From the NCBI RefSeq assembly GCF_014203215.1, contig NZ_JACHIM010000003.1:214082-278081 (forward strand): a DNA stretch of 64,000 nucleotides. Direction: 5' to 3'. This stretch comes from Bartonella callosciuri (lineage in GTDB: Bacteria; Pseudomonadota; Alphaproteobacteria; Rhizobiales; Rhizobiaceae). The notes beneath the pieces are model-generated. The model had not been told where the DNA came from. It searched no databases and saw only the letters and a program-made list of their open reading frames with translations. The position numbers were made by a program, and so were the translations under genes. Numbering within the stretch: the stretch's first letter is position 1; each line of letters begins with the position of its first letter. Positions 24,286 to 52,698 of the stretch are shown here, piece after piece.

Positions 24286-24768
24286 TTAGGATAGTTTTAT
24301 CTGACTCTGACTGTCTTTTTGTTCTTCAGCAACACGCTTTTGAAACAATGCTGCAAAATCAATTGGATCAATCCACAGAGGTGGGAAACCACCATTTTGA
24401 GTAGCATCAGAGATGATTTGCCGAGCAAAGGGAAACAAAAGACGGGGACATTCAATAAAAACAAGAGGCATAACATGCTCTTGTGGAACGTTTTTAATAT
24501 GAAAAACACCACCGTAAATCAGTTCTACGTGAAAAACTATTTCAGTATCATCATTGGCTTTGACGGAGAGGGACAAAACGACGTCGTAATTATCGTCACC
24601 AATTGGATTAGCGTTGACATTAATATTTATATCGATTTGTGGTGCCTTTTCACGTGGACGCAGTGAACGAGGAGCACTTGGGTTTTCAAATGAAAAATCT
24701 TTTAGATATTGAGTCAATACAGCAAAAACTGGCTCTCCACCACTGTTGTTCACTTCACCTTCAGCCAT
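24286..24768 (-). CDS. secB: Protein-export chaperone SecB
   Basis: Cytoplasmic tetrameric chaperone that keeps preproteins unfolded and hands them to SecA. The 160-residue protein has the family core: [20 protein letters not shown] at residues 13-32, then [20 protein letters not shown], followed by [17 protein letters not shown]. The C-terminal segment [20 protein letters not shown] and [16 protein letters not shown] is the SecA-interacting end. An AAGG motif lies seven bases before the ATG. The neighbours fxsA and the Tim44-domain gene next to secB are a conserved Rhizobiales arrangement. Confidence 0.97.
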
Positions 24769-48948: not shown

Positions 48949-49610
48949 GTGCGGTGACAATAAATGATGCTCACATTGATGAGCACCATCACGACAGTAG
49001 CTCAACAATGATATTTGGTTTTTGGGTCTATATCCTTTCTGATGTAATCCTATTCTCGACACTTTTTTCAAGTTTTGCTGTTTTTTCTGCTTCTTATGGT
49101 GGGGGAAAAGCCGGCAATGAATTTATTAATTTAAACTTTGTTTTGGTTGAAACCGCTATTTTATTGTTCTCATCAATTACTTATGGATTTGCGATGGTAC
49201 AAGCGTATAAATCCCAGATTGGTGGTGTGCGTTTATGGATGGCTGTTACCTTTGTACTTGGATGCTGCTTTATTGGAATGGAAATTTATGAATTTCATGA
49301 ACTTTTGAGTGAGGTGTTCTATTACGATCCTGGTGCTTATGCTGGTATTGATCCTGCAACAGGTTTACAGCTTTTTGGACGAGAGGTTTTATCTGCTTAT
49401 TGGTCAGCATTTTTCGCTTTGGTTGGCACACATGGTCTTCATGTGAGTGTTGGTCTTCTCTGGATGGTAGTGATGTTTTTTCATCTGCGTCGTCGTGGTT
49501 TGGATGAGGATAATAAAACGCGCTTAGCATGTCTTTCAATTTTTTGGCATTTGCTTGATGTCGTATGGGTTGGTGTTTTCACCATGGTTTATTTGTTAGG
49601 AGCGCTGTAA
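48945..49610 (+). CDS. cyoC: Cytochrome bo ubiquinol oxidase subunit III
   Basis: Five-helix subunit III of the oxidase, needed for assembly and stability. The 221-residue protein shows the histidine-rich N terminus (DEHHHDSS), FWVYILSDVILFSTLFSSFA, FALVGTHGLHVSVGLLWM and FWHLLDVVWVGVFTMVYLLG. It overlaps cyoB by 4 bp and cyoD by 1 bp (TAATG), which indicates tight translational coupling. Confidence 0.96.
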   Translation: MSAVTINDAHIDEHHHDSSSTMIFGFWVYILSDVILFSTLFSSFAVFSASYGGGKAGNEFINLNFVLVETAILLFSSITYGFAMVQAYKSQIGGVRLWMAVTFVLGCCFIGMEIYEFHELLSEVFYYDPGAYAGIDPATGLQLFGREVLSAYWSAFFALVGTHGLHVSVGLLWMVVMFFHLRRRGLDEDNKTRLACLSIFWHLLDVVWVGVFTMVYLLGAL

Positions 49611-50086
49611 TGAGCATGCAAAACGAAATACATGGTCCCAGTACTGGTTCCTATTTAATTGGTTTTATTCTAGCTGTATTTTTCACTTTGGGCTCTTTTA
49701 TTCCTGTGATGTATGGGATGATGGAGAGCTGGGCAATTAGCACAAAGGTTGCATATCTTATTGGGATGGCAATTATTCAAATTATTGTCCAGATCGTTTT
49801 CTTTTTGCATTTGAATTCTGGTCCAGATGCTAAATGGAATTTAAGTGCTCTGTGGTTTGCAGTTATTTGCGTTTTTGTTATTATTGGAGGCACTTGGTGG
49901 GCTATTTCTCATTTGAATTATAATATGATGGGTGGTTCAGGGCGTATTATTGAGCCGGAAATGTCAGAAGGAGATAGATCTGTATCGGCGGAGAAATTAT
50001 CAGGTACACAAATTTCCGTAGAGCAGATGCTAGGTGTAGAAGGGCCTATGGGGCAAACACTAGTTACACAAACTCTTGTAAAATAG
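49610..50086 (+). CDS. cyoD: Cytochrome bo ubiquinol oxidase subunit IV
   Basis: Small three-helix subunit IV. The start is the ATG at 49610 overlapping the cyoC stop, giving MSMQNEIHGPSTGSYLIGFI; longer readings run into cyoC. Of 158 residues, about 1-110 match the family (FLHLNSGPDAKWNLSALWFA, FVIIGGTWWAISHLNYNMM). A roughly 45-residue polar C-terminal tail beyond the third helix is longer than in E. coli CyoD. It is last in the operon; no cyoE for heme o synthesis follows here. Confidence 0.93.
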   Translation: MSMQNEIHGPSTGSYLIGFILAVFFTLGSFIPVMYGMMESWAISTKVAYLIGMAIIQIIVQIVFFLHLNSGPDAKWNLSALWFAVICVFVIIGGTWWAISHLNYNMMGGSGRIIEPEMSEGDRSVSAEKLSGTQISVEQMLGVEGPMGQTLVTQTLVK

Positions 50087-50113: not shown

Positions 50114-50140
50114 GCCAATGCCAAGTGCATTGGCTTTTTT
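50114..50140 (+). terminator. Intrinsic terminator of cyoABCD
   Basis: Perfect GCCAATGC/GCATTGGC stem (50114-50121 with 50127-50134), five-base loop, then six T. It lies 28 bp after cyoD. Confidence 0.92.
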
Positions 50141-50513
50141 GGTAGACGTTAGTCGCAAAAAAAAATTGCAGGACGACGTAAGATGGGTGATAAACATAGA
50201 GACAGTATAATCATCATGATTTTGAATTTGCTTTTGTTTTAAACAAGAAAGCCCATAGATAGATAGCTTAGAGGAATTTTAATTTTGATAAGCAGTCATT
50301 TGTAGAATATATAAGAATGATATTTATATAATTCAGCACAGAGAGTATGAGAATCTTGAAAAGATTTCATGTTGTGTTAGAATGAAACAGCAAAGGAGTA
50401 ATGTTTTCAACTTTAATAAATTTATATTAAAAGTATCTCAATTGAAGATATTTGCCACGATAATCTATAATTAGACGTAAGAGTGAAAATTTGGAGAATA
50501 ATCAAAAAACTTA
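50141..50513. other. Gap before gpsA
   Basis: About 370 bp of AT-rich sequence between the cyo terminator and gpsA. It must contain the gpsA promoter, but no boxes stand out. No gene, RNA or repeat was recognised, nor a direct repeat that would mark a transfer boundary. Confidence 0.5.
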
Positions 50514-51536
50514 ATGAAAGCCGTTTCGATAACAGTTATTGGTGCCGGTTCTTTTGGCACGGCATTAGCCATTGCTCTTGCCCGTAACGGCCACAGTGTT
50601 TTACTGTGGGGATATGATCCTCAACATATCAAAGAATTACAGAAATATCGCTGCAATCAAGCATTTTTACCCGATATTCGATTTCCTGATAATCTATCAC
50701 TTGAATCTTCACTTGAGACTGCGGTAACAGCAAGCCGCAATATATTGATTGCTGTTCCAAGTCATGTGTTTCATAAAGTATTGTACAATATCCAGCCTTA
50801 TTTGGATCAAAATTCACGTATTATTTGGACAACGAAGGGCCTAGAACATGGTACAGGACGTCTCTTACAAGAAGTTGCGCGCGAGATTTTAGGTGATAAA
50901 ATCCCCTTAGCTGTCTTTTCTGGACCAACTTTTGCTAAAGAGCTTGCTATCGGCTTGCCTACTGCGATTACGGTAGCAGCTTCTGATGCTGAATTTAGTG
51001 AAGAATTACAGCAAATTTTCCATTGTAACAAAAATTTTAGAGTTTATAAAAATCCCGATATGATCGGTGTTCAATTAGGTGGAGCAGTTAAAAATGTCAT
51101 TGCTATTGGTGCAGGAATATCTGATGGCATGGGATTTGGAGCAAATGCTCGAATAGCACTCATCACACGAGGTTTAACTGAAATCAGTCGGTTAGGTGTT
51201 GCTATGGGTGCTGAACTTTCCACATTTATGGGCATGACCGGCTTAGGGGATCTGGTTTTAACATGTACTGATAATCAGTCACGTAATCGGCGTTTTGGTA
51301 TGTTGCTTGGCCAAGGAATGGATACAGAAAAAGCAGAAAAACAAGTTGGTCAAATTGTTGAAGGTTATTTCAATACAAAAGAAGTGCGTGCATTAGCACA
51401 ACGTATCAGGGTAGAAATGCCAATTACAGAGCAAATTTATCAAGTGCTATTTTGCGGTAAAAGCGTGGTTGAAGCAGCCAACACATTACTGAATCGGACA
51501 CTTAAAGATGAAATGCATAATACCGTATGCTTTTAA
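50514..51536 (+). CDS. gpsA: Glycerol-3-phosphate dehydrogenase [NAD(P)+], enterobacterial type
   Basis: Reduces dihydroxyacetone phosphate to sn-glycerol 3-phosphate for phospholipid synthesis. The 340-residue protein has the Rossmann motif GAGSFG (10-15), [18 protein letters not shown], the catalytic lysine region [20 protein letters not shown] and [20 protein letters not shown]. Compared from memory it follows E. coli GpsA closely along its length ([49 protein letters not shown]) and is unlike typical alphaproteobacterial GpsA. This fits published reports that Bartonella replaced its own gpsA by genes from other bacteria. It stands alone between two AT-rich gaps. Confidence 0.96.
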
Positions 51537-51828
51537 ACTATTCAAACAGATGAGAGATATGGTGATAATATAAAAGAAACTTTGAGTGAGATTATACTGG
51601 CCATTAGACAAAGCAGTAATGCTTTAGCGAATGAGAGAGTTATAGGTGTTCGTTTTTTATGTAATATAACTTAAATATAAACAACTTGATCATTGCTTAA
51701 GTTATATCTTTGAAAATAAGCTATCTCCTTCGATTACAAATGTTATACATCGGCGAAAGAGAACTCAATGCATTTTAAAACGGTATGCAAATGATCATGT
51801 TTGCACTTTAAAAAAGTATTATGAATAA

Positions 51829-52647
51829 TTATTCTCCCCGTGTTTCTTCGCTTTGTTTTAATTCTTCAAGTGTTGGCATAGACATAATATTATAGCCTGA
51901 ATCAACATAATGAATTTCACCAGTAACACCTGATGATAAATCAGAAAGAAGGTAAAGAGCAGATTTTCCAATTTCATTAATATTTACGGTGCGACGCAAT
52001 GGTGCATTACGGCGTTGATACGAAAAAATTGCACGCGCTGCTGCAATGCCGTTTCCAGCTAAAGTTCTAATAGGACCCGCTGAAATTGCATTAACACGGA
52101 TATTTTGAGGACCAAAATCTGCCGCTAAATAGCGCACCATAGCTTCTAAAGCAGCTTTAGCCACACCCATGATATTGTAATTAGGTACAACTTGCTGCGA
52201 AGCTCCATAGGTGAGTGTTAAAAGTGCACCCCCATTAGGCATAAGCTTACCAGCGCGCTGAGCAATTTCAGTAAAGGAATAAGCTGAAATAACCATTGTA
52301 CGTTTAAAATTTTCGCGTGTTGTTACATCAACATAGCGCCCTTTTAATTGATTCTTATCTGAAAAACCAATGGCGTGAACAACGAAATCAATAGTTTTCC
52401 ATTCTTTTTCAAGATGTTCAAAAACACGATCGACATTTTCAATTTTTTCAACATCGCATTCAAGCAATAATTTGCAGCCGAGCTTTTCTGCGAGTGGTTG
52501 AACCCGTTTTCCGAAGGCATCTCCTTGATAGGTAAAGGCCAATTCAGCTCCTGCTTCTGCTAGTTGACATGCAATGCCCCATGCGATTGAATGGTCATTT
52601 GCAACTCCCATAATAAGGCCACGTTTGCCCTCCATCAAACCTTTCAT
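51829..52647 (-). CDS. fabI: Enoyl-[acyl-carrier-protein] reductase (NADH)
   Basis: Reduces enoyl-ACP in the last step of each fatty-acid elongation cycle. The ATG at 52647 has GGAG six bases upstream and gives 272 residues; a TTG at 52680 is less likely. GLIMGVANDHSIAWGIACQL is the NADH site. HAIGFSDKNQLKGRYVDVT and the Tyr157/Lys164 pair in NYNIMGVAKAALEAM are the catalytic core. It follows fabB on the same strand, in the conserved rhizobial cluster fabA-fabB-fabI. Confidence 0.96.
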   Translation of the reverse strand: MKGLMEGKRGLIMGVANDHSIAWGIACQLAEAGAELAFTYQGDAFGKRVQPLAEKLGCKLLLECDVEKIENVDRVFEHLEKEWKTIDFVVHAIGFSDKNQLKGRYVDVTTRENFKRTMVISAYSFTEIAQRAGKLMPNGGALLTLTYGASQQVVPNYNIMGVAKAALEAMVRYLAADFGPQNIRVNAISAGPIRTLAGNGIAAARAIFSYQRRNAPLRRTVNINEIGKSALYLLSDLSSGVTGEIHYVDSGYNIMSMPTLEELKQSEETRGE

Positions 52648-52698
52648 ATTATTCTCCGTAAGACCGTGCTTTTTTTCCAACCAGCCACGAACTTCTGT

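Follow-up and report, generated by a model that had tools for sequence, protein, structure and literature searches.

A gpsA gene between cyoD and fabI

The window analyzed here, a 64,000-nucleotide stretch of DNA from Bartonella callosciuri, carries an intact open reading frame of 340 amino acids with an ATG start, lying between cyoD and fabI (Table 1). The protein passes the NCBIfam equivalog model NF000939 over residues 2 to 335 (614.5 bits; cutoff, 473) and scores over the cutoffs of the Pfam GpsA domains. It has the N-terminal dinucleotide motif and the conserved lysine regions of a GpsA, with GAGSFG at residue 10, KGLEHG at 108, VKNVIAIG at 192, and SRNRRFG at 256, which presumably hold the binding and catalytic residues. 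Its likeness to Escherichia coli GpsA, on which the original prediction was built, amounts to 72% identity over 329 residues against the K-12 protein. The gene was also said to stand alone between AT-rich gaps with a base composition close to that of its neighbors, and this is borne out: its GC content is 0.400 and its GC3 is 0.267, within the range of 0.251 to 0.328 of 17 other genes of the window, and the GC contents of the two gaps are 0.288 and 0.291. Compared with 20 other Bartonella genomes, its dN/dS is 0.10 to 0.20; the gene is under purifying selection.

Table 1. Features of the gpsA locus and the second secB of the window
Feature	Position	Strand	Basis or remark
Other, intact secB of the recipient	24286..24768	-	NF004392, 215 bits (cutoff, 143)
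cyoD, left neighbor of the insertion site	49565..50086	+	Start codon uncertain
Terminator-like hairpin and T run 3' of the cyo genes	50120..50134	+	Terminator scan
Donor yibN-secB spacer, remnant	50294..50375	+	Profile match; approximate limits; includes most of conserved block 50314-50373
secB 5' remnant, about codons 1 to 24	50376..50446	+	Local and profile matches; start approximate (from alignment)
secB 3'-end remnant and likely gpsA ribosome-binding region	50484..50513	+	Local and profile matches
gpsA, predicted NAD(P)H-dependent glycerol-3-phosphate dehydrogenase, enterobacterial (Arsenophonus-like) in origin	50514..51536	+	NF000939, trees, dN/dS
Donor cysE, decayed 5' part	51540..51825	+	Local alignment, nhmmer
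fabI, right neighbor of the insertion site	51829..52680	-	

Distribution and phylogeny of gpsA types

We searched for gpsA in 71 Bartonella genomes, including that of the window. The window type occurs in 41 of them at 80 to 100% identity, and a relative with 66% identity is found in one genome, G006. Fourteen genomes carry a gpsA with 35 to 38% identity to that of the window, called the native type here because it groups with Rhizobiaceae in both of our GpsA trees. Another type (H type, 30 to 33% identity) is present in nine genomes; a single member was run against NCBIfam NF000943, and it passes. Only short gpsA matches, inside longer, apparently unrelated frames, were obtained in six genomes. 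The window's genome has a single gpsA match at an E value of ≤0.001, and thus one copy was found; no native-type gpsA was seen in it with a query that recovers native-type copies elsewhere at E values of about 1e-65.

Two genomes are irregular. G030, one of the six with short matches, has 816 N in its cyoD-fabI interval, where gpsA would sit, and we do not claim it as a true loss; the interval also holds a 43-residue gpsA match (E = 3e-5), which may be a second decayed copy or a product of chance or a repeat. In G045, a native-type gpsA (L137; G045:C3:2324971-2325938) is split into two parts that lie in different frames (31 and 41% identity), and glpT is likewise in two pieces, through either recent decay or an assembly error.

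GpsA trees were made from 98 and 47 rows out of 161 extracted proteins; duplicates and near-copies were among those omitted, and the broken or fragmentary rows L092 to L094 and L137 were excluded. Arsenophonus, proposed earlier as kin, provided the closest relatives found outside Bartonella, with 80% identity in four named records. The nine genomes of the Arsenophonus group that were searched gave eight full-length gpsA genes at 71 to 80% identity and a broken ninth, and GpsA identity reached up to 74% in 246 sampled genomes of the family outside the group. A broken gpsA (L092 to L094; G532:C1:107537-108339) was noted in an Arsenophonus-group genome of 0.7 Mb. In the 98-row tree, the Bartonella copies of the window type form one clade (SH-aLRT, 100) that is joined to Arsenophonus (100) within Enterobacterales, and the same two join in the 47-row tree with support of 99/100, the place of the pair within the gammaproteobacteria being left unsettled by that tree. 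The window gene thus groups with Arsenophonus, as a reacquired Arsenophonus-type gpsA.

Vertical descent of a native gpsA, made to look enterobacterial by fast evolution or convergence, would agree with the hostlike composition of the gene, and the approximately unbiased (AU) test did not reject a constraint that joined the window type to every alphaproteobacterial row (p = 0.13); we think this outcome uninformative, as the constraint may only rehang the long alphaproteobacterial branch on the stem. However, the window's GpsA shares 80% identity with Arsenophonus and about 37% with native-type Bartonella GpsA, a member of the same enzyme family in a separate clade, and a single clade of the window type and native-type Bartonella GpsA was rejected (lnL lower by 260; p = 0.0016). 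The empty insertion sites and the donor remnants described below also stand against it. Ruled out by trees, site, and flanks, this reading retains practically no probability, and the enterobacterial origin first proposed for the gene is confirmed by the same evidence.

The Bartonella copies branch next to Arsenophonus without being clearly nested in it, and their stem measures 0.13 to 0.14 changes per column, as would follow if the donor belonged to an unsampled sister lineage of insect-associated Arsenophonus relatives. With only nine Arsenophonus-group genomes in the sample, we offer this sub-case of an Arsenophonus-like donor tentatively, at somewhat less than even odds.

The gene of G006 stands apart. 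Uniting it with the window type in one clade cost 91 log units and was rejected (p = 4.7e-8), and it sits at another site (at 758 kb, with fabI at 147 kb). One acquisition common to the 41 genomes and G006 is rejected on these grounds, and the window gene does not belong to the G006 type, a second enterobacterial acquisition.

That gpsA has been transferred into Bartonella is already known. Zhu, Kosoy, Olival, and Dittmar reportedly described in 2014 three lineage-specific reacquisitions of gpsA from Arsenophonus-, Serratia-, and Helicobacter-like sources, and the 41, 1, and 9 genomes of our three types fit these three. A literature search for Bartonella and gpsA returned no title about the transfer. 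The present analysis deals with 71 species genomes, a comparison with empty sites, remnants of yibN, secB, and cysE, and a shared deletion in secB.

One insertion site

The original prediction called for a comparison of the cyoD-fabI interval across Bartonella lineages. In all 41 genomes with the window type, fabI adjoins gpsA at a distance of 214 to 2,244 bp, and cyoD is on the far side of gpsA in 39; the contig ends in the other two. In all 15 of the fetched genomes that are of the H type or G006 type or have no gpsA (G030 aside), cyoD and fabI are 135 to 382 bp apart with the site empty. The stretches fetched from 13 native-type genomes yielded no cyo gene. A species tree of 70 genomes was made from fabI, fabB, fabA, cyoB, and cyoA (G062 being without a fabI neighborhood) and rooted by choice on the native-type group; in it, all 41 bearers together with G030 form one clade (SH-aLRT, 99). 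Because the site is the same, cyoD and fabI are close set in the 15 other genomes, and the bearers are one clade, one insertion explains all 41 copies. When the gap DNA was aligned directly with the empty sites, no more than two very short matches emerged, too little to place its exact junctions.

The gap between gpsA and fabI is much longer, at 808 to 2,244 bp, in 19 of the 41 genomes (e.g., G018, G019, G020, G066, and G068). Seven of these long gaps were inspected; they have no open frame of >150 codons, and parts of them match between genomes in inverted orientation.

Remnants of donor genes in the flanking gaps

In E. coli and in six of the eight Arsenophonus rows, the gene order is secB-gpsA-cysE. 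We read the AT-rich gaps beside the Bartonella gene as fossils of donor DNA in the donor's order and orientation. In the window, positions 50419 to 50446 share 85.7% identity with secB of Arsenophonus (E = 0.002), and the upstream gap by itself matches the donor profile at an E value of only 0.09 (shuffle p = 0.065). Almost all of the downstream gap can be aligned with the beginning of cysE from Arsenophonus, with a score of 381 compared with 142 ± 16 in 200 dinucleotide shuffles, and nhmmer finds a cysE match at 51617 to 51804 (E = 2.2e-10).

We repeated the shuffle test in all 41 genomes with the 350 bp nearest gpsA. Downstream, p values of ≤0.05 against cysE were obtained in 24 of 41 genomes, with the smallest possible p in 18; the controls reached this level in 6 of 41 cases with reversed-strand cysE, in 1 of 41 with the wrong gene, and at 2 of 15 empty sites. 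Upstream, 12 of 41 genomes reached it against secB, and the controls gave none on the wrong strand, 9 of 41 with the wrong gene (cysE), and none at 16 empty sites. The mismatched controls are not clean. Because of these counts against their controls, the evidence from single genomes is suggestive downstream and weak upstream.

Pooled profiles give stronger evidence. When the 300 bp directly before gpsA in 22 genomes are combined into a profile, it matches the Arsenophonus region from the yibN 3' end to the secB 5' part (best E = 1.1e-32) and, as a second match, the secB end that adjoins gpsA (best E = 3.1e-6), and a downstream profile from the same 22 genomes matches cysE (best E = 1.3e-18). 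At an E value of ≤0.05, all 51 upstream matches are at secB and all 21 downstream matches are at cysE, on the same strand, and the best E value among 39 loci from Rhizobiaceae and the other Bartonella types was 2.4. In the opposite direction, a donor 5' profile matches 26 of 41 upstream gaps at an E value of ≤1, 18 of them at ≤0.001, and none of 41 downstream gaps, 16 empty sites, or 82 reversed sequences. With the profiles of secB and cysE, there was one match in a wrong gap (the D_G053 downstream gap to secB; E = 0.62), by chance or otherwise, and none in empty sites or reversed gaps. With the donor profiles at an E value of ≤1, no match was found in 15 of 41 upstream gaps and 28 of 41 downstream gaps.

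Of the 26 genomes with an upstream match, 22 have a match that stops 48 to 70 bp before gpsA, compared with a distance of about 400 bp in Arsenophonus; in the other four it stops earlier in secB, with more lost. Between the 5' and 3' remnants of secB in the window, roughly 340 to 360 nucleotides are absent. The similar end point indicates that these genomes share a deletion that took out most of secB. An incoming secB would be redundant because the recipient has another, intact secB in the window, the origin of that gene aside. G006 has fossils of its own, separate from those of the 41-genome type but in the same order: secB codons 1 to 86, part of grxC (E = 5e-8), and the first portion of cysE (68 bp; E = 3e-5).

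These remnants also bear on the direction of transfer. In favor of a transfer from Bartonella to Arsenophonus, the data are divided on whether Arsenophonus is one clade apart from the Bartonella copies; it is so in 48% of 200 bootstrap trees, and this arrangement was not rejected (AU p = 0.49). Yet the Arsenophonus gene is in the same secB-gpsA-cysE order as in E. coli and Xenorhabdus, the Arsenophonus-Bartonella pair falls within Enterobacterales in the 98-row tree, and it is in Bartonella that remnants of this order are found, so that transfer in this direction is very improbable. Compared with the enterobacterial locus of E. coli K-12 and Arsenophonus, Bartonella has the same type of gpsA and fossil flanks in the same order, but gpsA alone is intact, and it is at another site.

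The leader of gpsA

The hairpin after cyoD suggests that gpsA in the window is not transcribed from the cyo genes; three terminator-like sites were found in the stretch, compared with a mean of 1.0 in shuffles. A scan for sigma-70 promoter hexamers gave no evidence, with 8 found and a mean of 7.2 in shuffles. Conservation of the leader was measured in 21 genomes (G033 excluded), with gaps counted as mismatches and four-fold sites ungapped. The ribosome-binding region of gpsA is its best-conserved part (column identity, 0.77 to 0.82), and in the secB 5' remnant, column identity runs from 0.63 down to 0.32. The block at 50314 to 50373, a candidate promoter or leader, has a column identity of 0.66 to 0.72, about equal to the 0.69 of gpsA four-fold sites, and its conservation therefore does not prove that a promoter is there.

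According to PMC4257090, mutations in E. coli secB may have polar effects on gpsA, and E. coli gpsA is therefore read from upstream. It is an even call whether, in two independent acquisitions, the secB leader of the donor was captured and secB was gutted, so that a captured operon promoter would drive gpsA alone. Such a capture is only a proposal because the block does not exceed the four-fold sites. If the captured promoter were real, it would offer one reading of the avirulent Bartonella mutant of Saenz et al. (2007), in which, according to PMC8929704, a transposon sits upstream of gpsA.

Glycerol-3-phosphate supply

The original prediction proposed to look for loss of the glpK and ugp genes. 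For glpK the loss holds, with no glpK family member in any of the 57 genomes without a native-type gpsA; the loss of ugp is contradicted, as ugpB is present in all 57, although two have it split in two. One copy taken as a sample scores 541 bits with the UgpB equivalog model (cutoff, 411). The native-type genomes are unlike those of the window type: 13 of the 14 have a glpK family match (9 over the cutoff), and no ugpB was found in them except for one weak match. All nine genomes with glpT over the cutoff are of the native type, and elsewhere the matches are weak and below it. TIGR00023, which we take to be PlsY, matches all 71 genomes, in 70 over the cutoff and in G030 in two pieces below it, so use of glycerol-3-phosphate (G3P) by Bartonella seems to be universal. 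The two split ugpB genes, G037:C1:388850-390159 and G040:C2:224177-225486, have the same break point in two related genomes.

The bearers of a foreign gpsA can import G3P and probably make it as well. Five near-complete genomes (G010, G014, G036, G041, and G042), the rest of the six with only short gpsA matches and one clade in the species tree, have ugpB and the PlsY family; gpsA of any type, glpK, and glpT were not found in them. With ugpB as the sole visible source, they seem to depend on G3P import.

Proposed history

We consider it highly likely, with a probability of about 0.94, that a fragment from an Arsenophonus-like donor was inserted once between cyoD and fabI and that gpsA was kept while secB and cysE decayed. 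The fragment would have run from the yibN 3' end through secB and gpsA to the cysE 5' end and come from an Arsenophonus-like gammaproteobacterium, entering the common ancestor of the 41 sampled Bartonella genomes (42 with G030). The native gpsA would have been lost beforehand. After entry, purifying selection would have retained gpsA, with secB losing its middle and cysE decaying, and the leader of the gutted secB may still act as a promoter. GpsA is predicted to reduce dihydroxyacetone phosphate to sn-glycerol-3-phosphate, which phospholipid synthesis takes up through PlsY. This activity would have restored an internal G3P source in a lineage that lacked both native-type gpsA and glpK and was living on Ugp import. 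An arthropod may have been the meeting place, a setting that we infer from the identity of the donor.

Readable donor flanks of this kind reveal what cargo the transfer carried, that one event is sufficient, and which part selection has kept. The distribution of gpsA, glpK, glpT, and ugpB in turn sets up a clear test in the five genomes for which Ugp import is the only G3P supply in view.
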